Source of the DNA: Caldinitratiruptor microaerophilus
Lineage (GTDB): Bacteria > Bacillota > Sulfobacillia > Symbiobacteriales > ZC4RG38
Direction: 5' to 3'
DNA: 64,000 nt
Assembly (NCBI RefSeq): GCF_025999835.1
Contig: NZ_AP025628.1
Location: 1,798,001 to 1,862,000, forward strand
Part shown: in pieces, positions 1 through 21,325 of the stretch
Layout: each line of letters begins with the position of its first letter
Position numbering within the stretch: position 1 is the first letter of the stretch
Notes under the pieces: generated by a model
What the model was told of the DNA's origin: nothing
Database searches by the model: none
The model's input: the letters and a program-made list of their open reading frames with translations, nothing else
Translations under genes and position numbers: made by a program

Positions 1-565
1 GGATCACCACGGTGAGGATGGCCCGCCACCGCGTGGCGCCGAGGGCCAGCGCCCCTTCCCGCAGGGAGGTGGGCACGAGGCGGAGCACCGCCTCGGTGGT
101 CCGCGTCACGGTGGGCAGCATGATGACCGCCAGCGCCAGGCTACCGGCGAAGCCGTTGAAGTGGCGGACAGGGACCACGGCCAGGGCGTAGACGAAGACC
201 CCCACGACGATGGAGGGCACGCCGGCCAGCACGTCCGACCCGAACCGGATGGCGGACGCGACCCGGGTTTCACCGTACTCGCTGAGATAGACGGCGGCGA
301 GGACCCCGAGCGGGATCGCCATCAGGGCGGCCAGGGAGACCATCACGATCGACCCGGCGATGGCGTTGGCCATCCCGCCGCCCGGCTCCCCCACCGGTCG
401 GGGCATCGAGGTCAGGAACTCGAGCGTGAGGCCCGGCAGCCCCTGGCGGGCCGCGTAGAAAAGAATGCTCACAAGCGGTACCAGAACCACGATCGCCGCG
501 GCGAACATGAGCGCTTCCATCAAGAGTCCCCGCAGGCGCCGCCCGCGGTGCCGGCTCCGCCTCAC
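1..565 (-). CDS. pstA: Phosphate ABC transporter permease PstA (3' part cut by window edge)
   Basis: Inner-membrane permease of the high-affinity phosphate transporter PstSCAB, paired with PstC. The gene starts at GTG 565, whose GTGA overlaps the TGA stop of pstC, so the two are translationally coupled. The readable part has a basic N-terminus (RRSRHRGRRLRG), a first membrane helix, and the conserved stretch ending in REGALALGATRWRAILTVV. That stretch is the EAA-type loop that contacts the ATPase PstB. The C-terminal part lies beyond position 1. Membership in the pstS-pstC-pstA operon is seen directly. The matching ATPase gene is not downstream within view; a pstB gene sits in the phoPR operon instead. 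Confidence 0.93.
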   Translation of the reverse strand, partial: MRRSRHRGRRLRGLLMEALMFAAAIVVLVPLVSILFYAARQGLPGLTLEFLTSMPRPVGEPGGGMANAIAGSIVMVSLAALMAIPLGVLAAVYLSEYGETRVASAIRFGSDVLAGVPSIVVGVFVYALAVVPVRHFNGFAGSLALAVIMLPTVTRTTEAVLRLVPTSLREGALALGATRWRAILTVVI

Positions 566-1551
566 AGTACCCCACCCCCCAGGCTCCGGCCCCGCGTCAC
601 CGACCAGATCAGCACCCGCGCGCCGATCCCCACGAGCAGGGTGACCCCGAATAGCACCAGCCCCACCTCCACGAGCGCCGCGAGGTGCACGTCACCGACC
701 GCCTCCGCGAACTCGTTGGCGATCACGCTCGCCATGGTCTGCGCCGGTGACAGAAGGGACCTCGGGATCTCTGCCCGGTTCCCGATGACCATCGTGACAG
801 CCATGGTCTCCCCCAGCGCCCGCCCGAGACCGAGGATGATCGCTCCCATGATGCCCGGCCGCGCCGCGGGTAGCAGAACCAGCCGGATCATCTCCCACCG
901 GGTCGAGCCCATCGCCAGCGCTCCCTCCCGGAGGCTGTCCGGAACCGCCCGCAGCACCTCGCGGCTTACCGCCGTGATCGTGGGAACGATCATGATCGCC
1001 AGCACCACGCCCCCGGCCATCAGCCCCACGCCGAGGGGCGGGCCGCTGAACAGCGGAACAAAACCCAGGTGTTCCGAGAGGGGCACCTGTACGTGGTCCC
1101 GAAGCCACGGTGCCAGAACGAAAATGCCCCAGAGGCCGTACACCACGCTCGGAGCTGCCGCCAGGAGCTCCACCAGAAACGAGACCGGCTCCCGCAGCCG
1201 CGCGGGCGCCACCTCGGCCAGCCAGATGGCCACCCCGAGACCGGGCGGCCCGGCCAGGACCAGGGCCAGTGCGGAGGAGGCCAGGGTTCCGACCACGAAC
1301 GCCGCCGCACCGAACTCCTCCGCCACCGGGTCCCATTCCGCCCGCACGAGGAAGCGCCAACCGGTGCGGTCGATCGACGGGCCGGCCGCACGAACCATGC
1401 CAAGGGCCATCGCCAAGAGGATGAGCAGAATCAGCACGCCCGCCGCCAGGGTCAGCCACCGGAAGACCCCGTCGGCGCGCTGGCTGCGCAAGAACGCCTG
1501 CACCCGGCCCGCGCCAGTGCGCCGGGCCAGGGCTGCGGGTGGCACCTGCAC
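562..1551 (-). CDS. pstC: Phosphate ABC transporter permease PstC
   Basis: Second permease subunit of the phosphate importer, about 329 residues with around six membrane helices. Recognisable stretches are the LLILLAMALG first helix, AAAPSVVYGLWGIFVL in the middle, and the EAA loop (SLREGALAMGSTRWEMIRLV). GRALGETMAVTMVIGN near the C-terminus is typical of PstC. I chose GTG 1551, preceded by GAGGTG at a good distance; a TTG at 1569 would add six residues. The stop overlaps the pstA start by 4 nt. A strong hairpin separates it from pstS upstream. Confidence 0.95.
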   Translation of the reverse strand: MQVPPAALARRTGAGRVQAFLRSQRADGVFRWLTLAAGVLILLILLAMALGMVRAAGPSIDRTGWRFLVRAEWDPVAEEFGAAAFVVGTLASSALALVLAGPPGLGVAIWLAEVAPARLREPVSFLVELLAAAPSVVYGLWGIFVLAPWLRDHVQVPLSEHLGFVPLFSGPPLGVGLMAGGVVLAIMIVPTITAVSREVLRAVPDSLREGALAMGSTRWEMIRLVLLPAARPGIMGAIILGLGRALGETMAVTMVIGNRAEIPRSLLSPAQTMASVIANEFAEAVGDVHLAALVEVGLVLFGVTLLVGIGARVLIWSVTRGRSLGGGVL

Positions 1552-1611
1552 GTACCTCTCACCTCGCAAGCTGGACGCTGGTGCGGGCCCTACGGATGTC
1601 CGGCAAGTGGA

Positions 1612-1650
1612 GGGACCGGACCGCCCCCCGTCGACCGGCGGCCCGGCCCC
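1612..1650 (-). promoter_or_regulatory. Intercistronic hairpin between pstS and pstC
   Basis: Arms at 1612-1625 and 1637-1650 pair over 14 positions in RNA (12 Watson-Crick, two G-U) around an 11-nt loop, with no U tract. It lies in the roughly 120-nt gap between the pstS stop and pstC start. In Bacillus subtilis a stem-loop at the same place protects pstS mRNA, so the binding protein is made in excess over the permeases. The same role is inferred here from position and strength. Confidence 0.7.
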
Positions 1651-1669
1651 TGTTGTTGTGGATCGGAGG

Positions 1670-2833
1670 CTACTGGAGGAGCGGCTGCCCCTGGTAGGTG
1701 ATGGACTTGAGCTTGCCCTCGACGAGCTTGACGACCTCCGGGGGCAGAGGGGCGTAGAGGAGCTCGGGAGCCATCTTCTGGGCGTCGTGGGTCATCCACC
1801 ACAGGAGCTTCACGAGCGCCTCGCCCTTCGCCTTGTCCGCCTGCTCCTTGTAGACCAGGATGTAGGTGAAGGAGGCGATGGGGTAGCTCTTCTCGCCGTC
1901 CGGGTTCGTGATGCTCACCCGCAGGTCGGCCGGCATGTCCGCCGCGGCGCCGGCCGCAGCGGCCGAGGTGGTCTCGAGCGAGGGCTCGACGAACCTGCCG
2001 GCCTTGTTCTTCAGGTGGGCGTAGGGCATCTTGTTCTGGATGGCGTAGGCCAGTTCGACGTAGCCCACCGCGCCCCTGGTCTGGGCGACCTGGCCGGACA
2101 CACCCTCGTTGCCCTTCGCACCGATGCCGGTCGGCCACTTGACGGAGGTGCCTGTGCCGACCTTCTCCTTCCACTCCGGGCTGACCTTGCTCAGGTAGTC
2201 GGTGAAGACGGCGGTGGTGCCGCTACCGTCCGACCGGTGCACGACTGCGACGGGGAGGTCGGGCAGCTTGACGTCGGGATTCAGCTCGGTCAGGCGCTTG
2301 TCGTTCCACTTCGTGATCTTGCCGAGGAAGAGCTCCGCCACCACGTCCGGGGTCATCTTGAGGGGCACGTTCACGCCGGGGATGTTGTAGGTCACGACCA
2401 CGGCGCCCAGGACGGTCGGGATGTGCACGAGCTCGCCCGGCGCCTTCGCCAGGGCCTCGTCGGTCATGGGGGCGTCGCTGGCCCCGAAGTCGACGGTCCG
2501 CTCGGTGATCTGCCGCTGGCCGCCGCCACTGCCGATCGACTGGTAGTTCACCCTGACCGGGTTGGACTTGGAGTACTCATCGAACCACTTGCTGTAAATC
2601 GGATAGGGGAACGTGGCGCCGGCGCCGTTCAGGTTGATGACCTTCCCGCCCGACGCTGCGGGCTGAGAAGACGTGTTCTGCCCGCTCGTGCTCTGGCCCG
2701 CCCCCTGGGCACCGCTCTGGTTCCCCTGCGCCGCCTGGGGCTTGCTCCCGCACCCGGCCAGGAGCGCCACGAGGGACAGGAGAGCGGCTGCGACCACGAG
2801 GGGCCGGCGCCGCCGGACCGTCTGGACCACCAT
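1670..2833 (-). CDS. pstS: Phosphate-binding lipoprotein PstS
   Basis: Extracytoplasmic phosphate-binding protein that delivers phosphate to PstCA. The 387 residues start with a basic n-region (VRRRR), a hydrophobic segment and the lipobox LLAGC, so it should be a lipoprotein anchored to the outer face of the membrane. A Gln/Ser/Gly-rich linker follows. The mature domain carries the PstS signatures GAGATFPYPIY, SIGSGGGQRQI, FGASDAPM and RSDGSGTTAVF, which supply phosphate ligands in characterised homologues. It is the first gene of the pstSCA operon. Paired TTAA elements lie 66-94 bp upstream of its start, in line with control by PhoP. Confidence 0.96.
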   Translation of the reverse strand: MVVQTVRRRRPLVVAAALLSLVALLAGCGSKPQAAQGNQSGAQGAGQSTSGQNTSSQPAASGGKVINLNGAGATFPYPIYSKWFDEYSKSNPVRVNYQSIGSGGGQRQITERTVDFGASDAPMTDEALAKAPGELVHIPTVLGAVVVTYNIPGVNVPLKMTPDVVAELFLGKITKWNDKRLTELNPDVKLPDLPVAVVHRSDGSGTTAVFTDYLSKVSPEWKEKVGTGTSVKWPTGIGAKGNEGVSGQVAQTRGAVGYVELAYAIQNKMPYAHLKNKAGRFVEPSLETTSAAAAGAAADMPADLRVSITNPDGEKSYPIASFTYILVYKEQADKAKGEALVKLLWWMTHDAQKMAPELLYAPLPPEVVKLVEGKLKSITYQGQPLLQ

Positions 2834-2898
2834 CGCTCCGGGACCCTCCCTTTCGGTCTGGCTCGTGCTGCTGCCAGGGGACAGGCTAGCACGTGCGC

Positions 2899-2927
2899 TT
2901 TAAGGAAAGCGGGGGCGGATCGTTAAG
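2899..2927 (-). promoter_or_regulatory. Candidate PhoP operator of pstSCA
   Basis: On the minus strand CTTAACG and CTTAAAG occur with their TTAA cores 23 bp apart (cores at 2923 and 2900). TTAA is scarce in this GC-rich sequence. The same pair recurs before phoP (22 bp apart) and pstS2. The first element continues as CTTAACGATCCGCC, nearly identical to CTTAACGATCTGCC before the phoX-type gene. Bacillus PhoP binds TTAACA-like repeats with an 11-bp period, and 22-23 bp is two such periods. Operator function is inferred. Confidence 0.6.
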
Positions 2928-2945
2928 CCCGGATGAATCGTCGTC

Positions 2946-3707
2946 CTACCCGAAGCGGCCGGTGACGTAGTCCTCGGTCCGCTGGTCGCGCGGGTTCGTG
3001 AACAGGGAACCCGTGGGCCCGTACTCCACCAGCTCCCCCATCAGCAGGAAGGCCGTGTAGTCCGAGACCCGGGCGGCCTGCTGCATGTTGTGGGTCACGA
3101 TCACGATGGTGTACCGCTCCCGCAGGCTCCACACCAGGTCCTCGATCCGGGCCGCCGAGGCCGGGTCGAGGGCGGCGGTGGGCTCGTCCAGGAGGAGCAC
3201 CTCGGGGCCCGTCGCCAGCGACCGGGCGATGCAGAGACGCTGCTGCTGGCCCCCGGAGAGGCGCAGGGCGGACTCGTGCAGGCGGCTCTTGACCTCCTCC
3301 CACAGCCCGGCGGCGCGCAGGCTCGCCTCGACGCGACCGTCCAGCTCCGAGCGCGCCCGGACCCCCTGCACCCGCAGGCCATACGCCACGTTCTCGTAGA
3401 TCGACGTGGGGAACGGGTTCGGCTGCTGGAACACCATGCCGATCCGGCGTCGCACGGCGATCGGGTCGGCACCGCACGCGTAGACGTCCTCCCCGTCCAG
3501 GAGCACCCGCCCCCGCACTTCTGCATCCGGCACCAGCTCGACCAGGCGATTCAGGCAGCGGAGCAGGGTCGACTTGCCGCAGCCGGAGGGGCCGATCACC
3601 GCCAGGACCTGCCGTGCCGGCACCGGCAGGGTCACGTGGCGCAGCGCAGGACGGCCGCCGAACCGCACGCTCAGGTCTTCGACCCGGATCTTCTCGTGCA
3701 CGTCCAT
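2946..3707 (-). CDS. pstB: Phosphate transporter ATPase PstB
   Basis: ATP-hydrolysing subunit of the phosphate importer, 253 residues. All ABC motifs are intact: Walker [12 protein letters not shown]-loop [10 protein letters not shown], signature LSGGQQQR, Walker B with catalytic Glu [12 protein letters not shown], and H-loop IVTHN. I chose ATG 3707, which sits in TGATG with the phoR stop; GTG 3710 is possible. It forms an operon with phoP-phoR instead of closing the pstSCA operon. As the only catalytically complete PstB in view, it probably also serves the second Pst set at 13044-16647. Confidence 0.95.
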
Positions 3708-5811: not shown

Positions 5812-5842
5812 CGCCTCCCGGCACCGATCCTAGCAACCCTGC

Positions 5843-5870
5843 TTTAAGACAAAATGAAATGCACGTTAAG
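5843..5870 (-). promoter_or_regulatory. Candidate PhoP operator of phoP-phoR-pstB
   Basis: On the minus strand CTTAACG and CTTAAAG have TTAA cores at 5866 and 5844, 22 bp apart. A third, weaker match (TTCATT) falls midway, giving an 11-bp period like that of PhoP direct repeats in Bacillus. The block lies just upstream of the GTG start of phoP. It also borders the 3' end of the HAD gene transcribed towards it. Confidence 0.6.
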
Positions 5871-9661: not shown

Positions 9662-9682
9662 GGCTCTCGACCTCCGAATGCG

Positions 9683-9709
9683 GTGCGGGGAGGATCGCCC
9701 TCCCCGCAC
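9683..9709 (-). terminator. Hairpin between the phoX-type gene and the cytochrome c gene
   Basis: A perfect 11-bp inverted repeat (arms 9683-9693 and 9699-9709) with a 5-nt loop lies 30 nt after the phoX-type stop and 21 nt before the cytochrome start. There is no U tract. It could end part of the transcripts or stabilise the upstream message. Confidence 0.5.
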
Positions 9710-9739: not shown

Positions 9740-10966
9740 TCAGAACCCCGTCACGGCCACCACGGAGGAGCGCCAGGGGGCGTCCGGGTGCTGGATCGAG
9801 AAGAAGAGAGTCTTGTAGTCGGGGGTGAAGAACGGCCCCGTGCCCTCGGCGCCCAGAGGGATGGTGGCGAACCGCTTGAGCTTCCGGGTCCGGTCGGCGA
9901 CCCAGACGTGGTTGTTCCCGTACTGCGCGCCGGCGGGCGGCATGAACTCCTCGTATTTGTCCTCGAAGATCCAGAGGTTGCCCTCGCCGTCGACCGCCAG
10001 GTTGTCCGGGTTGAACAGGCCGGTGCCGGGGCCGCCGTCGACGAAGGGGGTCAACTCGAGGGTCTGGGGATTCAGCTTCCAGATCCGGCCGTACTTCTCC
10101 ACACCCTGCTTCTTGTTGTCGCCCGTCTCGGCGAAGTACAGCATGCCGTCCTTCGGGTTGTACTCGATCTCCTCCGGCCGGTTGAACGGCGTGGCCCCGT
10201 GCTCCAGGCCATACCTGCGGGCGTCCCCCAGGGCGGCGGGGTCACGCGGGATCTCGATCCACCGCCGGTTCCTGGCGTCGAGCGCGTACAGCTGGCCGCT
10301 GGACAGGTCTCCCTCCCGGTCCGCCACGAACTTGAAGATGAGGCCGCCGCGGAAGTCGTCCCCCATGTACACGGTCCGCCTGTCGGGCATCACGACGGCG
10401 CCCTCGTGGGAGAAGCGGCCCATACTGAAGTGCTTGCGAACCTGCCGGGTCACCGGGTCGAACTCAACCATCCAGCCGTAGAGCTTGGGGTTGGCGGCCA
10501 GCCCCGCCGGGATCTCCTTCACGTCCTGGGGCGGGTACTCCTCGGCGATCAGGACAGTGCCCCAGGGCGTGACGTTGCCCGCGCAGTTGTTCCAGGTGCC
10601 GCCCGCAGCGCTGAAGTCGACGCGCTCGGAGTGCAGGACGGTCCAGGTGCCGTCGGCGTTCCGGGCCACCGTGAGGAGGCTGCCGCCCCCCGGCGTGGTC
10701 TCGTGGTTGACCCACAGCCGCCCCAGCTCCGAACCGTAGATCGGCAGGTACACGGTCAGATCGGCCATCCCGCCGAACCTCTGACCGTCGGAGGTGGGGT
10801 CGTCTTCCTCCATCAGGATCTGGTAGCGGTAGCCGGCGGGCAGATGCAACTCCTTGTCGGTGGCGACGGGTACCGGGTTGAAGGAGACGGCCTGGGCCGG
10901 CGTCGCCAGCGTGGCGGCCGCCGCGGCCGCCGTGACGGCCGCGGCGACGATGCGCCTGGCTTTCAT
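9740..10966 (-). CDS. phoX: PhoX-type (DUF839) secreted alkaline phosphatase
   Basis: Probable extracellular phosphatase that frees phosphate from organic esters, 408 residues. The N-terminus MKARRIV plus an Ala-rich segment ending TPAQA is a signal peptide, more Sec-like than the twin-arginine signals usual for PhoX. Family stretches are clear: WNNCAGNVTPWGTVL (its Cys bridges the metal cluster in PhoX), EEYPPQDV, FSHEGAVVMPDRRTVYMGDD, FNRPEEIEYNPKDGMLYF, NPDNLAVDGEGNLWIFED and TGPFFTPDYKTLFFSIQHP. It is shorter than classical PhoX. ATG 10966 follows GGAGGGG. A TTAA element 55 bp upstream matches the pstS operator. Enzyme activity is inferred. Confidence 0.82.
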   Translation of the reverse strand: MKARRIVAAAVTAAAAAATLATPAQAVSFNPVPVATDKELHLPAGYRYQILMEEDDPTSDGQRFGGMADLTVYLPIYGSELGRLWVNHETTPGGGSLLTVARNADGTWTVLHSERVDFSAAGGTWNNCAGNVTPWGTVLIAEEYPPQDVKEIPAGLAANPKLYGWMVEFDPVTRQVRKHFSMGRFSHEGAVVMPDRRTVYMGDDFRGGLIFKFVADREGDLSSGQLYALDARNRRWIEIPRDPAALGDARRYGLEHGATPFNRPEEIEYNPKDGMLYFAETGDNKKQGVEKYGRIWKLNPQTLELTPFVDGGPGTGLFNPDNLAVDGEGNLWIFEDKYEEFMPPAGAQYGNNHVWVADRTRKLKRFATIPLGAEGTGPFFTPDYKTLFFSIQHPDAPWRSSVVAVTGF

Positions 10967-11004
10967 CGAATCCCCTCCTGGCAGATGGCTCGTACCGCCT
11001 GCCA

Positions 11005-12837
11005 TCATACAGGCAGATCGTTAAGATCTTCGCGTTCTGTCGATGAAGTTCTCACCCGGCGCTCCTTCGCCCGACGCTTCGCCACCGCAGCGATACGGGC
11101 CAGCTCCAGCACGCTGCCGAACGGATGGTCCAGGTTCGAGACGACCGCCAGGGACACCGTGGGAACCGGCGCGTCCGAACCGGGCGCTCCCCGGTTCGAA
11201 CCGACGGCGGCGTCGAACCGGCCGGCGATCCACCGGCACAGCCGCTCTGCGTCCGCCGACCGGGTGATGACGATGAAGTCGTCGCCCCCGATGTGACCGA
11301 CGAAGTCGTCGGGCGTGCCCACCGCGGCGACGGCGTCCTGGAGGATCTGCCCGAGAATCCGGATCACCTGGTCGCCATAGGCGAAGCCGAGGCAGTCGTT
11401 GATGAGCTTGAACCGGTCGATGTCCGCGTAGATCACCGTCATGGGTTCCCCGGCCTGGATGCGCCGGCCGAGCTCGGCCTCGATGCGCAGGTTCCCGGGC
11501 AGGCCCGTGAGGGGGTTGGCGTGCTTGGCGATGTCGATGTGGATCTGGGCGATGCGGTCCAGGAGCCGCCGGCTCGACAGCACCCCCTGGAAGCGGCCGG
11601 CGGCGTCCACCACCAGCACGTAGTCGTCGAGCTGCTCGCGCCGAGCCGCCACCGACTGCGCCACGGCCACGAGGGGCGTCCCCGCCTGCATGACGGGGGC
11701 CTCCTCCACGACGAGGTCGACGGGACGGTGCATGAACACGGCATACCCGTACTGGGACCCGAGCCGCTGGAAGACCTGGTGCCGCACCAGGATGCCCTCC
11801 GGGCGGCCGTCCGGGTCTGTCACGACCAGCACTCCGTCGGAGTCCGGCCGCTCGAGGAGCGGCAGCACGTCGGCGAGCCGGGCGACTCGGGACACGGTGG
11901 GCACCTGGACGGCCACCTCGCCCAGGGTGATGTCCTGCCCCGCCTTGTTCCCCGTCACGGCCCTGCGCCGGACGGCGTCGACCACCCGCGCCTCCGGTTC
12001 ACCCGGTTCGAGTGCAGGGCGGCCGACGAGGAACCCCTGGCCGAGGTCCACCCCGAGGTCCACCAGGTGCTCCAGCTCGGGAAGGGCCTCGATGCCCTCC
12101 GCGACGACCTGCGCGCTCATCCGGTGGGCGAGTTCCACCAGGGCCTGCACGACCTTGCGGCGCGTGTCGTCGCGGTGAACGTCCCGGATCAGGGAGCGAT
12201 CGAGCTTGATGAGGTCCGGGTGAAGCGAGGCGACCGTGGCCAGGTTGGAGTAACCGGCTCCCAGGTCGTCCACCGCGATCTTGAAGCCCCTCTGCCGGAG
12301 GCGGCCGACGACGGAGCGGAACGACTCGCCGGTGGCCCCCGCCGCCCGCTCGGTGATCTCCAGCACCACGTGCCGCGGCTTCACACCGGCTCCTCGCACC
12401 GCTGAGAGAAGGGTTTCCAGGAGGCGCTCCGGATCCCGCACCGTGAGCGGGTGCACGTTGAGCAGGAGACGGCCGGTCCCTCCGCCCAAAGCTCCCCGGA
12501 CGGCAAGGGCGGTGCGGATGCACAGAAGATCCAGGTCCACGGTCCGGCCGGACGCCTCCGCCGCCTGGAAGAGCGCCCCGGGGGACTCCAGCGGACCGCG
12601 AGGGCCGCGGGCGAGGGCCTCGTGGCCGGCCACGTGCCCGGACCGGAGGTCGAGGATGGGCTGAAAGACGGTATGGATCTCCTGGCGGTCCAGGATCGCC
12701 TGCAAGGGGTCTTCCGGGGGTCGATCGCAGCCGGTGCCGGCCTGGGCGCCGTCCGAGCCCGGCGTGAGGGTGCCGTTGGCGTGGGGCGTGCCGGTCGCCG
12801 CGCTCCAGCGTAGCGGAAAGAGGTCACGCAGCATCAT
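11005..12837 (-). CDS. EAL-CBS-GGDEF cyclic-di-GMP protein
   Basis: A 610-residue soluble protein. The N-terminal EAL domain (about 50-285) looks catalytically complete, with EALARGP, LLLNVHP, VLEITERA, VDDLGAGYSNLATV, IKLDRSLI and VVAEGIE. Two CBS motifs (about 310-430) may bind a nucleotide. The C-terminal GGDEF domain (about 440-590) has DIDRFKLINDCLGFAYGD and IGGDDF, a conservative change from GGDEF, so cyclase activity is plausible. Start ATG 12837 follows GGGAG; ATG 12834 is an alternative. It shares its upstream region with pstS2, where TTAA elements lie, and overlaps the phoX-type promoter. That points to second-messenger signalling tied to phosphate supply. Confidence 0.9.
   Translation of the reverse strand: MMLRDLFPLRWSAATGTPHANGTLTPGSDGAQAGTGCDRPPEDPLQAILDRQEIHTVFQPILDLRSGHVAGHEALARGPRGPLESPGALFQAAEASGRTVDLDLLCIRTALAVRGALGGGTGRLLLNVHPLTVRDPERLLETLLSAVRGAGVKPRHVVLEITERAAGATGESFRSVVGRLRQRGFKIAVDDLGAGYSNLATVASLHPDLIKLDRSLIRDVHRDDTRRKVVQALVELAHRMSAQVVAEGIEALPELEHLVDLGVDLGQGFLVGRPALEPGEPEARVVDAVRRRAVTGNKAGQDITLGEVAVQVPTVSRVARLADVLPLLERPDSDGVLVVTDPDGRPEGILVRHQVFQRLGSQYGYAVFMHRPVDLVVEEAPVMQAGTPLVAVAQSVAARREQLDDYVLVVDAAGRFQGVLSSRRLLDRIAQIHIDIAKHANPLTGLPGNLRIEAELGRRIQAGEPMTVIYADIDRFKLINDCLGFAYGDQVIRILGQILQDAVAAVGTPDDFVGHIGGDDFIVITRSADAERLCRWIAGRFDAAVGSNRGAPGSDAPVPTVSLAVVSNLDHPFGSVLELARIAAVAKRRAKERRVRTSSTEREDLNDLPV
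11016..11029 (-). promoter_or_regulatory. Candidate PhoP half-operator of the phoX-type gene
   Basis: Minus-strand CTTAACGATCTGCC is near-identical to the element before pstS. It lies 55 bp upstream of the phoX-type start and inside the last codons of the EAL-CBS-GGDEF gene. A weaker TTCATC match lies 22 bp further upstream. Only one full TTAA core is present, so this is weaker than the other sites. Confidence 0.45.
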
Positions 12838-12905
12838 GTTCGGCGCTCCCGGGCGGTGAGGGTGGTCGAAGAGCCCGAATGCGTGACGTGAATGATACAC
12901 CGGCG

Positions 12906-13043: not shown

Positions 13044-13904
13044 ATGCGGCGGACGTTCCTCCCGGGGAACTGGCAGGCGGCCGGGCTCTCGCTTCTGGTC
13101 CTGGCGGTGGTGGCAGGCTGCACGCGCGCGGGCGCCGGCCGGCAGACCATCACGATCAAGGGTTCGGACACCATGGTGATCCTCGGCCAGCGGTGGGCAG
13201 AGGAATACATGCGGCGGCATCCGGAAGTGCACATCCAGGTGACGGGCGGGGGCTCCGGCACCGGGATCGCCGCGCTCATCAACGGTACCACCCGGGTCGC
13301 CCAGGCATCCCGGAAGATGACCCCGGCAGAACGGGGACAGGCAGAACGCCGCCACGGAAAGCCCGTGCGTGAGATCGTGACGGCCATGGACGGGGTAGCC
13401 GTGTACGTGAACGAGGGGAACCCCGTGGAAAGCCTCACACTGGCCCAGGTGCGTGCACTCTACACCGGACAGATCACGAACTGGAAAGACGTCGGCGGTC
13501 CCGATCTCCCCGTCGTGCTCTACGGCCGGGAGAACAACTCCGGGACCTACGTCTTCGTCAAGGAACACGTACTGGAAGGGGCGGATTACTCCCCTTCCAC
13601 CCGCACACTGTCCGGCACCGCGGCGGTGGTGAGCGCGGTCGCCTCCGACCCCGGCGGCGTGGGCTACGGCGGCATCGCCTATGGCCGAGGCGTCCGCCAC
13701 CTCAAGATCCGCCTCAACCCCTCGTCTCCCGCGGTCGGGCCTTCCCTGGAGACGGTCCGGTCCGGAGCCTACCCGCTGGCTCGGCCGCTCCACTGGTACC
13801 TGGTCGACGACGGCGATCCGGCCGTCCAGGCCCTGGTCGACTGGGTGCTGAGCCCCGAGGGCCAGCGGATCGTGGATGAGGTGGGCTACTTTCCGATCCG
13901 CTGA
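13044..13904 (+). CDS. Second phosphate-binding lipoprotein (PstS-like)
   Basis: A 286-residue lipoprotein with lipobox VVAGC after a short signal. Binding-protein signatures are IKGSDTMVILGQRW, VTGGGSGTGIAALINGTT, a QASRKMT segment in place of the usual GASD-type motif, and RENNSGTYVFVKEHV. It resembles the shorter PstS forms of Bacillus rather than the 387-residue PstS encoded at 1670-2833. ATG 13044 follows GGGGGAGG. It starts a plus-strand operon with pstC2 and the pstA2 fragments. TTAA elements lie 86-138 bp upstream. Phosphate as ligand is likely; a related oxyanion cannot be excluded. Confidence 0.88.
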   Translation: MRRTFLPGNWQAAGLSLLVLAVVAGCTRAGAGRQTITIKGSDTMVILGQRWAEEYMRRHPEVHIQVTGGGSGTGIAALINGTTRVAQASRKMTPAERGQAERRHGKPVREIVTAMDGVAVYVNEGNPVESLTLAQVRALYTGQITNWKDVGGPDLPVVLYGRENNSGTYVFVKEHVLEGADYSPSTRTLSGTAAVVSAVASDPGGVGYGGIAYGRGVRHLKIRLNPSSPAVGPSLETVRSGAYPLARPLHWYLVDDGDPAVQALVDWVLSPEGQRIVDEVGYFPIR

Positions 13905-13931: not shown

Positions 13932-14876
13932 ATGACGGATCGCTGGGACCGGTGGGTACGGCGGATCACCTTCGCGAACGCCCTGACCGTGGCCGTCGTC
14001 CTCTTGCTGCTTTACGGCTGGCTGGTCCGGGAGGCGGCTCCGGTTGTGGCCGCGCCACCGTCGGAAGCGCAGGTGCGCCGCCTTCTGGGGCCCGTGAGCA
14101 CGCCGGAGGGCTCCGCATACGTCTGGCAGCCCATCTCGGCGGTGCCGAAGTACTCGGTGGTGCCACTCCTCATGGGAACCGCCAAGGTGTCGGCCCTGGC
14201 GACCGCCGTCGCCGCCGGACTCGGGCTTCCCGCCGCACTCTTCACGGCATCCTTCGCCCGGGGGCGGCTGGCCGAGGGCCTGCGGACCTGGATCAGCCTG
14301 GCCGGCGGCGTTCCGGCCGTCGTGGTGGGCGCCGTCGTCCTGCTCGACGTGGCGCCGCCGGCGGCACGGCTGCTGAAGCTGGGGTCGCCGCTGAGCGCCC
14401 TCACGGCCGGGATCGCCCTGGGTTTCTGGGCGGCGCCGACCGTGTACGGGGCAGGCGAGGAGGCGCTCCGCCGGGCCACCCGTGCCCAGCTCGAGGCGGG
14501 GCTGGCCCTCGGGGCGACGCGGTGGCAGGTCCTGCGCGACATGGTGATCCCCGCCGCGCGACCGGGGCTCGTGGCCGCTGTGCTGCTCGGGGCGGCGCAG
14601 ATCCTGGGGGAGACGATGATCGTCCTCATGGTCTCCGGGAACGCCGCCGTGGCGACGTGGGATATGCGGGCTTCCACCCGGACCATTTCCGCCACGCTGG
14701 CGGCCGAGATGGGTGAGGTGGTGGCGGGCAGCGTCCACTACCGCATCCTGTTCCTGCTGGGGACCCTCCTGCTGCTGGCGACCTCCATCCTGAACGCTGC
14801 CGCCCGACTTCTCCAGGCCCGGGCGGGCCGTACCCTGGAGCAGGCGGCCGGCGGTCCGGAGGGGCGGCCGTCATGA
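13932..14876 (+). CDS. Second PstC-like permease
   Basis: A 314-residue permease with about six membrane helices, less conserved than PstC at 562-1551. Supporting stretches are GTAKVSALATAVAAGLGLP, the EAA loop EAGLALGATRWQVLRDMVIP, and AQILGETMIVLMVSGNAA, the PstC-type GETM segment. A soluble insert sits between helices 1 and 2, about residues 40-75. It starts 28 nt after pstS2 and overlaps the next gene by ATGA. The system appears to be a diverged paralogue of the main Pst operon. Confidence 0.85.
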   Translation: MTDRWDRWVRRITFANALTVAVVLLLLYGWLVREAAPVVAAPPSEAQVRRLLGPVSTPEGSAYVWQPISAVPKYSVVPLLMGTAKVSALATAVAAGLGLPAALFTASFARGRLAEGLRTWISLAGGVPAVVVGAVVLLDVAPPAARLLKLGSPLSALTAGIALGFWAAPTVYGAGEEALRRATRAQLEAGLALGATRWQVLRDMVIPAARPGLVAAVLLGAAQILGETMIVLMVSGNAAVATWDMRASTRTISATLAAEMGEVVAGSVHYRILFLLGTLLLLATSILNAAARLLQARAGRTLEQAAGGPEGRPS

Positions 14877-15370
14877 GGCCCGGCCGCGCCGCCGAGCGGG
14901 GAGCGCTGCTCCTGGGAGGGCTTGCGAGCCTGACGCTCGCCGGGGGACTCCTCGGGATCCTGGTCGCCGCCGTTTGGTGGGGATGGCCCAGGCTCAGCCT
15001 GGGCCTGCTCACCCGGGCGCCGGAACACGGCATGACCGCGGGCGGGATCCTTCCGGCGGTGGCCGGCACGCTGATCCTCATCGGCCTCATGCTGGTCGTG
15101 GTCGTGCCCGTGGGCACGCTGGCAGGCATCTACCTGCACGAGTACGCCCCGGCGCGGTCCCGGGTCACCCGGGCCGTGCTCCTCGCCCTGGAGGGCCTGG
15201 CCGGGGTTCCGCCCGTCATTGTCGGGCTGTTCGGGTTCGGATTCTTCGTCCAGTACGTGGGGGGCCGGATCGACCGGTGGCTGTTCGGCGGCGAGGTGAC
15301 GTACCGCACCCCGTCACTCCTCTGGGCGGCGCTCACGCTGGCCGTGCTCACCCTGCCACCATGGTGCTGA
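14873..15370 (+). pseudogene. PstA-like permease, N-terminal part (broken by a frameshift near 15356)
   Basis: The first 160 residues are a good PstA: membrane helices at about 13-37 and 63-86, ATYLHEYAP-like GIYLHEYAPARSR, and GLAGVPPVIVGLFGFGFFV. The frame then reads LTLPPWC and stops at 15368-15370. One extra C in CCTGCCACC (15353-15360) would give LTLPTMVLTALQALGAVP, the normal PstA sequence, continuing in the frame of the following entry. This is therefore a one-base deletion, a sequencing error, or a split gene with restart at ATG 15361. It begins at an ATGA overlap with pstC2. Confidence 0.8.
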
Positions 15371-16647
15371 CGGCGCTCCAGGCTCTCGGCGCCGTGCCGC
15401 GGGGTCTCCGGGACGCGGGGCTGGCAGCGGGTGCGAGCCGCTGGCAGACCATCCGCGACCTCGTGCTCCCGCGCGCATGGGCCGGCATCCTGAGCGGCGC
15501 CATCCTGGCCATCAGCCGCGGGGCCAGCGAGGTCGCCCCCGTGATGTTCACGGGGGTCGCCTACTTCCTGCCGTACCTCCCGTCCCGGCTGAACGACCAG
15601 TTCATGGAACTGGGCTACCATGTCTTCGTCCTGGCAACGCAGTCACCGGACGTGCGGCAGACCCGCCCTCTCCTGTACGCGTCCGTCGTGGTCCTCCTGA
15701 GCATGACGTTCCTGCTTCATGCCCTGGCCATGACTCTGCGGCGCCGGGCCCGCACGGGCGCCGGCCGGGACCTCGCCGACCCCCTGGCGGCCGCGGCCGG
15801 TCCACCGCCGGCGGGCGGAGCCACCGCGCTGCAGGAGGCCGGGCCCGTCCGCCGCGGTCCTCGCACGGTGGTCGGGGGCCAGCCACCCCGGGTGAAGATG
15901 GACGTTACGGGCGTCCACCTGCAGGTGCGCGAAAGGGTCCTGCTCCGGGGCGTCACCCTGCCCATCCACGAACACCGGATCACGGCGGTCATCGGCCCGG
16001 CCGGCTCCGGCAAGGCGGCGCTCCTCCGGGTCATGAGCCGCATGGCCGAGGAGTGGGAAGGCGCCCGCCTCGAGGGACGGGTGCTGCTCGACGGCACCGA
16101 CATCCGCACGCTACCCGCCGAGGTGGTGCGCCGGCGGGTCGCCCTCATCGAGCGTCCCGTGGTCTTCCCCCGCTCGATCTACGACAACGTGGCCTATGCG
16201 CCCCGCCTGCAGGGAGTCCGGCGAAAGACGGACCTCGATGCCCGCGTCGAAGCGAGCCTGCGGGCGGCCGGGCTCTGGCGGGAGGTGCGGGACCAGCTCA
16301 ACCGGCCCGCCATGGATCTCGACCCGTGGCAGCGCGTCCGCCTCGTGCTCGCTCGCGCCCTGGCGGCGGGGCCGGAAGTGCTCCTGGTGGACGCCTCGGT
16401 GATCGTCATGGACCGGCTGGCCCTGAGCACCCTGGAGGAGCTCCTCGACGCGCTCAAGGCGAGCCATACCCTGGTGATCGTGACCCACGACCTGGGCCAG
16501 GCGGCGCGCCTTTCCGAGTACACGGCCTTCCTGGAGAAAGGGGAACTGGTGGAGTTCGGTCCCACAGAGGACGTGTTCGTCCACCCCCAGAAGGAGCGGA
16601 CACGCGCATACCTCATGCGCCCGTACCATTACGGGACCGCTCCGTAA
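15361..16647 (+). pseudogene. PstA C-terminal half fused to a catalytically dead PstB-like ATPase
   Basis: Residues 1-125 complete PstA (EAA loop RDAGLAAGASRWQTIRDLVL, then helices). A Pro/Ala/Gly linker (126-178) leads directly into a PstB domain (179-428). That domain matches the intact PstB over long stretches, for example [11 protein letters not shown] and QAARLSEYTAFL, but its catalytic motifs are gone. Walker A ends GKAALL instead of GKST, the Q-loop reads IERPVVFP, and the signature is LDPWQRVR instead of LSGGQQQR. Walker B is LLVDASVIVMD with no Glu; only the H-loop IVTHD survives. ATG 15361 has no clear ribosome site. It is either a decaying gene or a regulatory pseudo-ATPase. Confidence 0.8.
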
Positions 16648-16679: not shown

Positions 16680-17849
16680 CTACGCCCTGACCGTATCCGG
16701 CAGTACGACGTGTCCCGCCAGCGCCAGAACCCTTCCCGCGACAGCCAGCGCGGCGCGCGGCCGGCCCGCGGCGCGCGCCGCCTCGCCCATGCGCTCGCGG
16801 CGCCCGGGGGCGTCGACCAGGAGGTAGCGGGCCAGGGCCGCGGCCTGCCCGGGGGTGCGTGCCTGGATGGCGGCGCCGAGGCGCGTGAGGTGCGCCGCGT
16901 TGTCTTCCTCGTGCCCCGGCAGCGGCCTCAGGAGCACCATCGGAAGCCCGACCGCCAGCGCCTCGCTGCAGGTGAGGCCCCCCGCCTTCGTCACGAGAAG
17001 GTCTGCCCAGGCCATGAGGGAGGCGACGTCGGGAGTGTACCCGTGGACCTCGAGGCGGGGATGGTCCGCCGCCAGCCCTCTCAGGCGGGCCGCGGCGCGC
17101 CGGTCCTGCCCGGCCACGACCGTCACCGCCGGCGGCGGGTCGAGCCGGAGGAGGAACCGGGAGACGGCCTCCAGCGGCCCGATGCCAAGGGAGCCGCCCA
17201 TGACCAGCACCCGGCCGGGTGCATCCGCCGCGCACCCACGCCGGAGTCCGCCCGGAGAACCCGCCCAGAAGGCTTCGCCGATCGGGATCCCGGTCACGGC
17301 CACGCGCCCGGGGGGCACGCCCCGCCCGAACAGCGCGCGGGCCGTGCTGGCGGAAGCGACGAAGAAACGGTCGTAGCCGGGGTGAATCCACGCCGGGTGC
17401 GGCCAGAAGTCGGTCAGGACCACGGCCGCGGGCACCCCGAGTTCCCCCCGCCACCGGAGATGGGCCACCGCCAGGCCGGGGAACGGGTGGGTGGCCAGAA
17501 CCACGTCCGGGCGGACCGAGCGGACGGCCTCCCGGATGGCAGGACCGAGGAGCCAGCTGGCCACGTCTCCGGCCCCGCGGGCGTCCGACGCCGTGGCCGT
17601 CTGCCGGTAGAGCCAGCCGTACGACCCGGGGGTCCACCGCAGGAGCCGGAGATACACGTCCGCCACGGCGGGGAGAAGGCGTTCCCCGCGCGTCGCCGGA
17701 CGCGTGCCCAGTTCCCGTACCACGACAAGCGCGCCCGGGCGAAGCCGCCCGACGGCCGCCGCGACCGCCCGCGCGGCCTGCGTGTGGCCTGAGCCGAACC
17801 GGGCCGAGAGGACCAGCACCCGCGGCACCGGCCCCCGGGTCACCGGCAC
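16680..17849 (-). CDS. Diacylglycerol glycosyltransferase (MGDG synthase / UgtP-like, GT28)
   Basis: A 389-residue membrane-associated glycosyltransferase that adds sugar from a UDP-sugar to diacylglycerol. The N-terminal acceptor domain shows LSARFGSGHTQAARAV, close to the glycine/His loop of MGDG synthases and UgtP. The C-terminal nucleotide-sugar domain shows VMGGSLGIGPLEAV, and TKAGGLTCSEALAVGLPMVL with PLPGHEEDNAAHL. MurG-type enzymes share the fold, but murG is present elsewhere in the window. Its start overlaps the phospholipase C gene by 10 nt, so the two should be made together. The sugar (glucose or galactose) and whether it acts processively cannot be read. Confidence 0.85.
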   Translation of the reverse strand: MPVTRGPVPRVLVLSARFGSGHTQAARAVAAAVGRLRPGALVVVRELGTRPATRGERLLPAVADVYLRLLRWTPGSYGWLYRQTATASDARGAGDVASWLLGPAIREAVRSVRPDVVLATHPFPGLAVAHLRWRGELGVPAAVVLTDFWPHPAWIHPGYDRFFVASASTARALFGRGVPPGRVAVTGIPIGEAFWAGSPGGLRRGCAADAPGRVLVMGGSLGIGPLEAVSRFLLRLDPPPAVTVVAGQDRRAAARLRGLAADHPRLEVHGYTPDVASLMAWADLLVTKAGGLTCSEALAVGLPMVLLRPLPGHEEDNAAHLTRLGAAIQARTPGQAAALARYLLVDAPGRRERMGEAARAAGRPRAALAVAGRVLALAGHVVLPDTVRA

Positions 17850-18544
17850 CCCACCGCTTCGAGGAAGAAGGCGAGGAAGCCGGCCGTGGTCCGCTGCGCG
17901 CGCGGCAGCAGCACGGACAGGGCGATCTCCTTCATCGTCTCCGTGGCCTCCGCGCCGGCCAGCGGCAGATACATCCGGGCGATCCGAGCGTTGGCAACGA
18001 CCCAGCCGGCGGGGTCTCCGGCCACGTCGTAGAGACCGTCACGGACCACGGCGAACTCCCGGCGCCGGCGGCGAGCGAAGTGCTCGAACTCCCGGTGTCC
18101 GTCCAGGAGCCGGCAGGCGGCGTGGTGGGGCACGCAGAGGTCCTGCACCAGGTGACAGGCCGCTCCGAGGTAGAAGAGCGCCGTCTCCCGGCTGCCATGG
18201 TGCCAGGCGGAGACGGCGCTCTCGAAGTACGCCCCGCAGACGGATGCCGCATGGGGCCAGCCCCGGATGCCCCGCCCCGTGGTCGGGTCGTACATGTGGG
18301 TCACGTTGCGGGAGCCGCCATCGGCCCACGCGCTCCCCAGCTGGATCTGTTCCAGATAGGGCCACAGTGCCTTCACGGCCGTCCAGTGCCCATCCGCTTC
18401 GAGGATCCGCAGCGCCTGGAGGTTGATGAAGTCGTGGGTGGGCGACGGTCTCGACCACACCCCTGCAACGGGGGCGACAGCTGCCAGCGCAAGCCGGCTC
18501 ACGACGCCAAAGTGCTGCCCGGCTTCCGCCGCCGGTACCGCCAT
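17840..18544 (-). CDS. Zinc-dependent phospholipase C
   Basis: A 234-residue enzyme of the Bacillus cereus PC-PLC family, which cuts phospholipids into diacylglycerol and a phosphorylated head group. All nine zinc ligands of the B. cereus enzyme have counterparts: Trp30, His37 (SPTHDFIN), Asp75 (SAWADGGS), His83 (VTHMYDP), His131 and Asp135 (CHLVQD), His141 (VPHHAA), His150 and Glu154 (GHREFEHF). Trp30 must be the mature N-terminus to bind zinc, so cleavage after PVAGV is expected and the Ala/Val stretch before it would be the signal. Its product is the acceptor of the overlapping glycosyltransferase. Confidence 0.85.
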   Translation of the reverse strand: MAVPAAEAGQHFGVVSRLALAAVAPVAGVWSRPSPTHDFINLQALRILEADGHWTAVKALWPYLEQIQLGSAWADGGSRNVTHMYDPTTGRGIRGWPHAASVCGAYFESAVSAWHHGSRETALFYLGAACHLVQDLCVPHHAACRLLDGHREFEHFARRRRREFAVVRDGLYDVAGDPAGWVVANARIARMYLPLAGAEATETMKEIALSVLLPRAQRTTAGFLAFFLEAVGCR

Positions 18545-18600
18545 GGCCCATCACCCTCTGCGATGAAGGCTCTCAGGGCCATCTTCGCGCGGTACCTTGA

Positions 18601-18621
18601 AATCCGCGTTACCGGCGGATT
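18601..18621 (-). terminator. Possible terminator hairpin downstream of ppa
   Basis: A 7-bp inverted repeat (18601-18607 and 18615-18621) with a 7-nt loop lies 77 nt after the ppa stop, followed in the minus direction by TTTC. It would separate ppa from the phospholipase gene. The rest of 18545-18697 shows nothing clear. Confidence 0.35.
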
Positions 18622-18697
18622 GTCGCTCAGGGAAATCCGTACGAAGGTTCGCCTCCGTGAGGCTGGCGGCCAACGCCCTCTGCCTTCCGACTGGAGG

Positions 18698-19189
18698 TCA
18701 CCGGCCGGCGTAAGCCCGCCGGGCGGCCGCCACCTCCTCGAGGGCCGCCTGGCGGCCGCGCCAGCCCCGGATCTCGGCCGTCTTTCCCTCGAGGTCCTTG
18801 TAGACGCGGAAGAAGTGCTCGATCTCCCGCTTCACGTGCGGCGGGACGTCGTCGATCTCCCTCACGTGGGCGAACCGGGGGTCGACGTCGACGACGGCGA
18901 GGATCTTCGTGTCCTCCCCCTTGTCGTCGGCCATGTCCAGCACCCCCACGATGCGGGCAGGCACCCGGCAGCCCGGGAACGTCGGGGCGGTGGAGAGCAC
19001 CAGGATGTCCAGGGGATCGCCATCCGCCGCGAGCGTCTCGGGAATGAAGCCGTACTCACCCGGATAGTGCATCGGCGAGTAGAGGACCCGGTCGAGGCGC
19101 AACCCGCCGAGCTCCGGGTCATACTCGTACTTGTTCTGGCAACCGCTCGGAACCTCGACGAAGGCGAGGACCGTCGACTCGCCGGTCAA
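18698..19189 (-). CDS. ppa: Inorganic pyrophosphatase (family I)
   Basis: Cytoplasmic soluble pyrophosphatase, 163 residues, normal for family I. It hydrolyses pyrophosphate to two phosphates and pulls biosynthetic reactions forward. The active-site stretches are present: VPSGCQNKYEYD, YPGEYGFIPETL, the metal-binding signature DGDPLDILVL, DKGEDTKILAVVDVD and EIEHFFRVYKDLEGK. The gene overlaps the preceding small membrane protein gene by 4 nt. It continues the phosphate theme of this half of the window, though ppa is a housekeeping gene and may be there by chance. Confidence 0.95.
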   Translation of the reverse strand: MTGESTVLAFVEVPSGCQNKYEYDPELGGLRLDRVLYSPMHYPGEYGFIPETLAADGDPLDILVLSTAPTFPGCRVPARIVGVLDMADDKGEDTKILAVVDVDPRFAHVREIDDVPPHVKREIEHFFRVYKDLEGKTAEIRGWRGRQAALEEVAAARRAYAGR

Positions 19190-19537: not shown

Positions 19538-19680
19538 CATGGACAAATGTCGCGTACCTTTGTCCCGAAAGGTTCCTGCTTCATCCACCGGCACCGCCCA
19601 AAGGCTGCAACCTCCGATGTCCACAGGCGTCACTTCCCGCCGAACTGGCGGTAGTTGGCCGGTGCCTAACCGGCCAAGGC
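19538..19680 (-). ncRNA. Candidate omega RNA at the tnpB 3' end
   Basis: TnpB nucleases use a guide RNA made from the tnpB 3' end and the right end of the element. Here the stretch after the tnpB stop can form two hairpins in the minus direction: GGCCGGT/ACCGGCC around the stop codon, and CCGCC/GGCGG just after it. A third possible fold, ACCTTT/AAAGGT, lies near 19557-19579. The guide would start at the element end, near 19537, and read into the small membrane protein leader. Folding and ends are inferred. Confidence 0.45.
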
Positions 19681-20769
19681 CAGCAGGTTCCGGGCCGCGT
19701 TCACATCCCGGTCATGGTGCGTACCGCAAGCGGGGCAGTCCCACGCCCGGACATCCAGGGGCAGTCCCTCCAGCACATGCCCGCAGCACGAACACGTCTT
19801 GCTGCTCGGGTAGTACCGGTTCGCCACGACCAGCTGGCTCCCGTACCACCCACACTTGTACACCAGCATCCGCCGGAACTCGCCCCAGCCCACGTCCGCG
19901 ATGTGCCGCGCCAGTTTCGGGTTCTGCAGCAGCCCGCTCACAGCCAGGTCTTCCACCACGATCACCCGCTTGGTTTTCGCCAGGCGCATGGTGAGCTGGT
20001 GTAAAAAGTCCCGCCGGATGTTTCGGACGCGCCGGTGCATCCGTGCCAGCCGCAGCGCCGACTTCCGTCGGTTCTTCGACCCCTTCTTCTTCCGGCTATG
20101 CTGCCGCTGACGGCGGCGCAGAAGGCGCAGGGTCCGCTGCAGGGGCCTGGGCGCCTCGACCTTCGCCACCGTGCCATCGTCCCCGGCCACCGTGGCGAAG
20201 TGATGCAGTCCCACGTCGATTCCCACCGCCGGCCCTTCTACGGGTACGGGATCGGACTGTTCGACCTCCACTGTCAGGCTCACGTACCAGCGGTCGGCCT
20301 CCCGGCTCACCGTGGCCGACAGGATGCGGCCTTGGACCCCGGGCTCCTCCTTCAGCCGGATGACCCCCAGCCGGGGGAGCTGCACCGCCCGGGCCAAAAC
20401 CCGGATGGAACCCGTCAGCCGGAACCGGTCGTCCCGCCCCTTCTTCCGAAACCGGGGGAAGCCCACCTTCCGGCCTTCCTTCAGGCTCCGGAAGAAGTTC
20501 TGGAAGGCCCGGTCCAGGTCCCGCAGCGCCTCCTGCGGGGCACACTTGGACACCTCGTACAGCCACAGGTACTCCGTCTTCTTCAGGCGGTTCAGTTCCC
20601 GGTGTTGCTCGATGGCGTTAGTGGTCTTGCCGGCCTGCTGGTAGAGTTCGACGCGTTGGGCCAGCCCCCAGTTGTAGGCGAACCGGGCGGCACCCGCGTG
20701 CTTGGCCAGCAGGATGCGCTGCTCCCGGTTCGGGTCCAGCTCGTACCGGTAGGCACGCGTAACTTTCAC
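19666..20769 (-). CDS. tnpB: TnpB RNA-guided nuclease
   Basis: A 367-residue TnpB, the ancestor type of Cas12 nucleases, which cuts DNA matching its omega RNA and favours retention of the element. The N-terminal helix-turn-helix region (AYRYELDPNREQ) and the linker are typical. The RuvC triad is intact: Asp in VGIDVGLHHF, Glu in VIVVEDLAV, Asp in HHDRDVNAARN. The zinc ribbon has CSCCG and CPACG. It overlaps tnpA by 152 nt in another frame. Nothing suggests inactivation. Confidence 0.93.
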   Translation of the reverse strand: MKVTRAYRYELDPNREQRILLAKHAGAARFAYNWGLAQRVELYQQAGKTTNAIEQHRELNRLKKTEYLWLYEVSKCAPQEALRDLDRAFQNFFRSLKEGRKVGFPRFRKKGRDDRFRLTGSIRVLARAVQLPRLGVIRLKEEPGVQGRILSATVSREADRWYVSLTVEVEQSDPVPVEGPAVGIDVGLHHFATVAGDDGTVAKVEAPRPLQRTLRLLRRRQRQHSRKKKGSKNRRKSALRLARMHRRVRNIRRDFLHQLTMRLAKTKRVIVVEDLAVSGLLQNPKLARHIADVGWGEFRRMLVYKCGWYGSQLVVANRYYPSSKTCSCCGHVLEGLPLDVRAWDCPACGTHHDRDVNAARNLLALAG

Positions 20770-21325
20770 GTTCGATGGCCTCCAGGGCTTTCTTCGCCTT
20801 GTTCCGGGCCGAGCGACGGCCGTAGAGGCGGGTACAGAAGCATGTGAGAACCTCGATCATGCCCTGGACCAGGTCATCCTTGACCTCACCAGGCTCGACG
20901 ACCACGATCCGCCGCCCCTGGGCCGCCAGGGCCGCTTCCACGTACTCGAAGCCGAAACGCATGAGCCGGTCCCGGTGCTCTACGACGATGGTGTTCACCT
21001 TGGGATCGGACAGCAGGCGCATGAGCTTGGGCCTGTGGCCATTCAGCCCGGAGCCGATTTCGGAGATGGCTTTCGTGACTGCCCAATCCTGATGGCTCGC
21101 GTACTCCACGAGTCGGGCAATCTGTCGGTCCAGGTCCGTCTTCTGGTCGGCGCTGGACACGTGCGCATACAGGGCCGCGGTGCGGGAGGAGACCTCCGGC
21201 TCCTTGACCAGGATCGTCCCGGTGGGCGTCTGTTCGAAGGGAACGGGCATCTTCCCTTGCCGCACCCAACGCCAGGCCGTCTTGTAGGAGATGCCTTGCT
21301 TTCTTGCCCATTCGCTCAGCTTCAT
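20618..21325 (-). CDS. tnpA: IS607-type serine recombinase TnpA
   Basis: A 235-residue transposase with an N-terminal MerR-like helix-turn-helix (MKLSEWARKQGISYKTAWRW) and a serine recombinase core. The nucleophile motif reads YAHVSSADQKTDLDRQ. The family has YARVSS, and the Arg two residues before the Ser motif is an active-site residue, here His (codon CAC, one step from CGC). Other core features remain: EIGSGLNGHRP, RDRLMRFGFEYVE, CTRLYGRRSARNKAKKALEA. The tail beyond that runs 40 residues into tnpB and looks non-native, perhaps a lost stop. The transposase may be inactive. Confidence 0.88.
   Translation of the reverse strand: MKLSEWARKQGISYKTAWRWVRQGKMPVPFEQTPTGTILVKEPEVSSRTAALYAHVSSADQKTDLDRQIARLVEYASHQDWAVTKAISEIGSGLNGHRPKLMRLLSDPKVNTIVVEHRDRLMRFGFEYVEAALAAQGRRIVVVEPGEVKDDLVQGMIEVLTCFCTRLYGRRSARNKAKKALEAIERESYACLPVRAGPEPGAAHPAGQARGCRPVRLQLGAGPTRRTLPAGRQDH

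Follow-up and report, generated by a model that had tools for sequence, protein, structure and literature searches.

In Caldinitratiruptor microaerophilus we identified a gene for a phospholipase C (PLC) of the Bacillus cereus PC-PLC fold that overlaps a glycosyltransferase (GT) gene within an island of phosphate genes. We show the fold and the zinc ligands of the PLC, the overlap, the reappearance of the pair among relatives in either gene order, its recurrent linkage to pst genes and the PHO boxes of relatives. The reading that we favor, to which we assign a probability of about 0.74, is that of a Pho-regulated pair that swaps phospholipid for glycolipid; the activities, substrates, location, induction and lipid exchange in this reading are inferred. 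In this view, the PLC and GT genes would be translationally coupled in one operon, which would belong to the Pho regulon and be switched on by PhoP when phosphate is scarce. The PLC, probably at the cytoplasmic face, would cut membrane phospholipids into diacylglycerol (DAG) and a phosphorylated head group, which phosphatases would then mine for phosphate. The GT, on the same membrane face, would transfer a sugar from a UDP-sugar onto DAG, and the phosphate-free glycolipid would stand in for phospholipid, resulting in a net saving of phosphate.

Overlapping phospholipase C and glycosyltransferase genes

The stretch of DNA analyzed here (the window) comprises 64,000 nucleotides and lies within a single 3.6-Mb contig; the features discussed are listed in Table 1. 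The PLC matches the PF00882 profile above the curated cut-off (E 4e-11) and is the only PF00882 gene product of the whole genome. When its AlphaFold2 model (pLDDT 91, with residues 1-30 poorly ordered) was compared with solved structures using Foldseek and VIA-align, the top match was B. cereus PC-PLC (1ah7; Z 28, 1.8 Å over 204 residues), followed by Listeria PLC and then by the catalytic domain of alpha-toxin. The window protein carries the eight side-chain zinc ligands of this fold (H37, D75, H83, H131, D135, H141, H150 and E154). All eight His, Asp and Glu residues are invariant in an alignment of 82 PLC sequences, which has 13 invariant columns, eight of them corresponding to the zinc ligands of B. 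cereus PC-PLC.

The ninth zinc ligand of the B. cereus enzyme is its mature N-terminal Trp. An earlier interpretation made without database searches (the sequence-only reading) had credited the window protein with all nine ligands, and this claim held in part: the eight side-chain ligands are confirmed, and Trp1 is unsupported. The residue presumably read as Trp1, W30, is preceded by 29 residues with no cleavage established, and the structural match aligns residue 31 of the model with residue 4 of PC-PLC. We rejected W30 as a conserved ligand, since 76 of the 82 sequences have V, I, L or F in its alignment column and two have W. The family conserves a P-x-Q motif (positions 25-27) shortly ahead of the first zinc ligand; the window protein keeps P25 and has A27 in place of Q. 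Compared with B. cereus PC-PLC, the Listeria broad-range PLC and the catalytic domain of clostridial alpha-toxin, the protein has the same fold (Z 25-28) and the eight side-chain ligands in common. Unlike these enzymes, the family described here has neither a conserved N-terminal Trp1 nor a clear signal peptide, and the PLC lacks a C-terminal membrane-binding domain and is found in an operon with a GT.

An alternative explanation is that the PF00882 protein is a nuclease or another phosphodiesterase of the PLC/P1-nuclease superfamily, freeing phosphate from nucleic acid or another ester. In its favor, S1/P1 nucleases have the same fold (Z about 16), and the residues known to form the choline pocket of the B. 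cereus enzyme seem, as inferred from the alignment, not to be conserved here. Against it, PC-PLC is a much closer match (Z 28), PF00882 passes its cut-off, and the pairing with diacylglycerol-type glycosyltransferases is repeated in relatives; moreover, no nuclease family was found to outrank PC-PLC in the fold comparison of the model. We consider this explanation very unlikely.

The PLC and GT reading frames overlap by 10 nt (17840-17849, minus strand, PLC first), and the GTG start of the GT lies inside the last codons of the PLC. The GT matches MGDG_synth (PF06925) with E 3e-23 and 83 bits against a cut-off of 25, Glyco_tran_28_C (PF04101) with 44 bits against a cut-off of 22, and PRK13609 with E 1e-51. 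Its nearest NCBIfam model is diglucosyl-DAG synthase, far ahead of murG, and among solved structures it matches a processive DAG glucosyltransferase (9wde, 2e-32) and plant MGD1 (4wyi, 1.5e-22). The GT thus has the same MGDG_synth and GT28 C-terminal domains as UgtP/YpfP and plant MGD1, aligned over nearly the full length. Unlike these enzymes, it occurs in a Pho context and, at 176 bits, falls below the 500-bit equivalog cut-off of the NCBIfam UgtP/YpfP diglucosyl-DAG synthase model, so that neither its sugar nor its processivity can be assigned.

The sequence-only reading had described a 10-nt overlap of the PLC gene with a UgtP/MGDG-synthase-like gene, beside two Pst systems, phoPR, a PhoX-type phosphatase and a pyrophosphatase, and all of these assignments held. 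PstS of the second pst operon has an open frame from 12963 and a likely start at 13044. The pstA frame of this operon is broken near 15370 (first part, 14873-15370), and its remainder shares one open frame with PstB (14974-16647); a sequencing error, a pseudogene and a frameshift are all possible, and we leave the cause undecided. No PHO box was found at the pyrophosphatase promoter in our motif scan, and whether this gene belongs to the PLC-GT unit could go either way.

The window also contains an IS607-like element (19666-21325, minus strand) composed of a serine-resolvase-type protein (20618-21325) and a TnpB RNA-guided nuclease (19666-20769). A protein encoded at 8960-9709 (minus strand) has a cytochrome c domain fused to a copper amine oxidase N-terminal domain.

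Table 1 Features of the window around the PLC-GT pair
Feature	Position	Strand	Basis or remark
pstB, pstS, pstC and partial pstA, first pst operon	2..3707	-	pstB/S/C 562-3707; pstA fragment PF00528
PhoR	3707-5005	-	over PnpS and phoR_proteo cut-offs
PhoP/PhoB-type regulator	5116-5811	-	OmpR/PhoB-type response regulator
PHO box, phoP promoter, TTAACG-N5-TTCATT-N5-TTAAAG	5842..5869	-	p 0.001-0.002, best in window; internal positive control
PhoX-type alkaline phosphatase	9740..11008	-	PF05787 E 1.8e-58
EAL-CBS-GGDEF c-di-GMP protein	11005..12900	-	Pfam; divergent from pstS2, upstream of phoX
PstS, second pst operon	13044..13904	+	TIGR02136 E 2e-68, over cut-off
PstC, PstA, PstB, second pst operon	13932..16647	+	TIGR02138, TIGR00974, TIGR00972
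UgtP/MGDG-synthase-like diacylglycerol glycosyltransferase (GT28), 389 aa	16680..17849	-	PF06925, PF04101, PRK13609
PC-PLC-fold phospholipase C, 234 aa	17840..18544	-	PF00882, AlphaFold2, structure comparison
PHO-box-like repeats, ACAATC-N5-GTAACG-N5-TTCAAG, 11-bp period	18596..18623	-	upstream of PLC-GT operon
Inorganic pyrophosphatase	18698..19189	-	PF00719 E 2e-56; upstream of PLC

Recurrence of the pair and its linkage to pst genes

A scan of genome contigs with the window PLC as a single-sequence query returned no matches, and the alignment of the PLC family succeeded as a query. Applied to 84,980 species genomes, the alignment identified 144 related loci, of which 80 were kept, mainly from Desulfotomaculia, Heliobacteria, Negativicutes and Fermentithermobacillaceae; genes in these loci were called with a simple script. 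A GT28 gene adjoins the PLC gene in 13 of the 80 loci, six in the order of the window (L081, L127, L134, L137, L138 and L142) and seven in the reversed order (L131, L139, L148, L150, L153, L155 and L159). The L159 pair is that of Pelosinus fermentans JBW45, a culturable strain. About seven other loci, mostly from Desulfotomaculia, have a GT4 gene beside the PLC (L089, L100, L106, L116, L120, L122 and L129). The Desulfotomaculia PLC is often found with pst genes or a GT4 gene instead of GT28, and several Fermentithermobacillaceae have the PLC alone, without a GT. In a class-wide comparison of 154 genomes, PLC and GT lie side by side in G000, G007, G061-G063 and G069, where G007 (locus L081) is a genome of the window's own order; the PLC is absent from the same-family genomes G001 and G002. 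Besides the window's order, two further families of the class have the pair, as do Negativicutes, in which the gene order is reversed.

On a tree of the 82 PLCs, the label 'GT28 adjacent' requires six changes, 'any GT' 11 and 'pst nearby' nine, and these several changes therefore indicate repeated associations. Chance alone does not account for the pair, since the two genes adjoin each other in many genera and in either order, and the occurrence of two gene orders and two GT families favors function over shared ancestry of one arrangement.

In 17 of the 80 loci a pstS gene is found no more than about 7 kb from the PLC. From a background of 67 PstS matches in 37 of these genomes (~1.8 per 3.7-Mb genome), about 0.6 such cases would be expected by chance in 80 loci. 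The 80 loci are not independent, though 'pst nearby' changes nine times on the PLC tree. In L131 and L148 the genes pstS-pstC-pstA-GT28-PLC follow one another on one strand, and Desulfofundulus and its kin have the arrangement pstS-pstC-pstA-STAS-PLC. Fermentithermobacillaceae that have the pair showed neither a PHO box nor pst genes nearby. As a separate observation, the protein encoded between pstA and PLC in operons of the Desulfotomaculia type (L090, L095, L098, L102, L112 and L146) is a small STAS-domain protein.

Absence of the gene pair from relatives had been set beforehand as a refuting result; relatives do conserve the pair, and the idea survives. The sequence-only reading had also pointed to PF00882 genes beside GT28 genes near pho or pst loci as the pattern to survey in other genomes. 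The pair was found, and its link to phosphate recurs beyond the window. The suggestion of a separate solution in spore formers had to be amended, as the PLC-GT-pst set extends beyond a single spore former. Taken together, we regard a conserved, phosphate-linked PLC-GT pair as very likely.

Genes for EAL-CBS-GGDEF proteins are also found near the PLC in eight loci (L084, L123, L150, L151, L153, L155, L156 and L158). The window protein of this type is 36% identical, over both halves, to the one encoded beside GT28-PLC in L155, and its promoter has a PHO-box-like site (p 0.002-0.004). Judging from sequence, the c-di-GMP protein seems to belong to this regulon, which suggests that the Pho regulon in Bacillota has a c-di-GMP branch; its role is unknown.

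PHO boxes and the side of the membrane

Promoters were scanned with a PhoP-box PWM that was kept fixed (units resembling TTAACA, with an 11-bp period), and significance was estimated by Markov resampling. The scan was validated by pstS promoters, of which 16 of 19 (84%) were positive. Among the 13 GT28-PLC operons, six promoters have a PHO box at p ≤ 0.011 (L148, L139 and L150, 0.001; L155,.003; L081 of G007,.004; L131,.011), and the promoters of L134, L137, L138, L127, L153 and L159 were negative in this test. The other PLC promoters were positive (p <=.01) in 23% of cases, versus 5% of 459 background genes.

The window PLC promoter was marginal with the strict motif (p 0.06-0.09) and reached p 0.005 with a GC-tolerant motif, which had been widened after the site of the relative G007 was seen. 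With the GC-tolerant motif it ranked third of 54 promoters, behind phoP and pstS1 and ahead of pstS2, which was fourth, and only 10 of 128,000 positions scored as high. The site at 18596-18623 has two mismatches to the phoP-type site. In the absence of expression data, we take this evidence for a PHO box at the window PLC-GT promoter as supportive and not decisive.

The glycolipid could alternatively serve structure and not phosphate, as a lipoteichoic acid anchor or in the sporulation membrane, with the PLC recycling lipid. UgtP makes lipoteichoic acid anchors in Bacillus, and in one family (f40) the pair is remote from pst genes and has a polysaccharide deacetylase-like gene as its neighbor. 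However, no LtaS-type PF00884 protein was found in G000, G007, G175 and G183 (G007 being only 77% complete), which argues against teichoic acid anchors. Diderm Negativicutes lack teichoic acids and yet carry the pair, and the PHO boxes and the pst linkage also speak against a structural role, which we judge very unlikely.

To place the favored phosphate-saving pair relative to the membrane, we considered the N-termini of the PLC family. Their hydrophobicity is close to that of cytosolic controls (GT28 and EAL proteins) and far below that of PstS lipoproteins, and a crude signal-peptide rule was met by 3 of 81 PLCs versus 16 of 19 PstS. Because the family N-termini resemble cytosolic controls and few pass the signal rule, a PLC on the cytoplasmic side is favored. 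The window PLC is one of the three that pass, as a borderline case. We thus infer that the PLC of the pair probably acts at the cytoplasmic face, with doubt for the window member, for which an extracytoplasmic location remains possible and is not excluded.

A related alternative is that the PLC is a secreted scavenger, like B. cereus PC-PLC, freeing head groups from environmental phospholipid, and that the GT merely shares the operon as a housekeeping glycolipid synthase. The closest structural matches are indeed secreted PLCs, the window N-terminus satisfies the crude rule, and Pho-controlled export of hydrolases is common. Against this, the N-termini of the 81 relatives behave like those of cytosolic proteins, the P-x-Q motif shortly ahead of the first zinc ligand is conserved, and a GT partner is found repeatedly, in either gene order and from two GT families. 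We consider a secreted scavenger unlikely.

Relation to known lipid remodelling systems

Membrane lipid remodelling under phosphate starvation has been documented for PlcP-bearing bacteria, plants and algae. The PlcP-Agt system is found in Alphaproteobacteria as well as in other phyla (PMC4796936, PMC9239053). In over a quarter of marine isolates an agt homologue is located close to plcP, with Pho boxes, and mutants confirmed the role of PlcP in phosphate-starvation remodelling (PMC4796936). As in PlcP-Agt, the PLC gene described here adjoins a DAG glycosyltransferase gene, with Pho boxes and a context of phosphate genes, and by analogy the cell would make DAG and convert it into glycolipid. 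PlcP is a calcineurin-like metallophosphoesterase, whereas the lipase of the present pair is a PF00882 zinc enzyme of the PC-PLC fold; this distinction is based on matching only PF00882, without a direct comparison with PlcP sequences. The pair further differs in its GT28 partner (GT4 in some relatives) and in its hosts, anaerobic Bacillota. The analogy with PlcP-Agt through a different lipase family, drawn before this analysis, is supported and fits the genomic pattern in PMC4796936. The accompanying claim that the PLC releases DAG and the GT glycosylates it is supported by context, and the lipid chemistry remains inferred. Plant NPC with MGD/DGD follows the same logic, in that the DAG used to make glycolipid in phosphate starvation comes from a phospholipase C; NPC belongs to an unrelated lipase family and acts in plant membranes.

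The lack of another DAG source was considered as an additional argument for the pathway and rejected: PAP2 and DagK genes are present in the genome, so that DAG has other possible sources.

The open-licence literature searched yielded no paper that names PF00882 or the PLC-GT pair, and the novelty of the PF00882-GT pair is accordingly no more than provisional. If the favored reading is true, anaerobic Bacillota own an independently evolved version of lipid remodelling, based on a fold that has been associated mostly with toxins and secreted scavengers, and the PC-PLC toxin fold would gain an intracellular relative with a housekeeping role. The pair would then provide a genetic explanation, open to testing, for membranes rich in glycolipid among bacteria of phosphate-poor subsurface and sediment habitats, and metagenome marker genes beside plcP. 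A bolder reading, towards which we lean only slightly when all its parts are taken jointly, is that anaerobic Bacillota rely in phosphate starvation on a lipase from an undescribed but widespread clade of PC-PLC-fold enzymes, which would be intracellular, lack the N-terminal Trp ligand and have converged with PlcP. GT28 and GT4 enzymes would be interchangeable as its partners, and the same regulon would include a c-di-GMP protein.

Apart from these questions, we observed a second PLC subfamily with a GASSTH-like motif before the first zinc ligand (L089, L106, L116, L120 and L122). Its members are partnered with a GT4 gene and in many cases also have a PHO box, and both subfamilies are present in some genomes, e.g. 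those of Desulfofundulus and Desulfovirgula.
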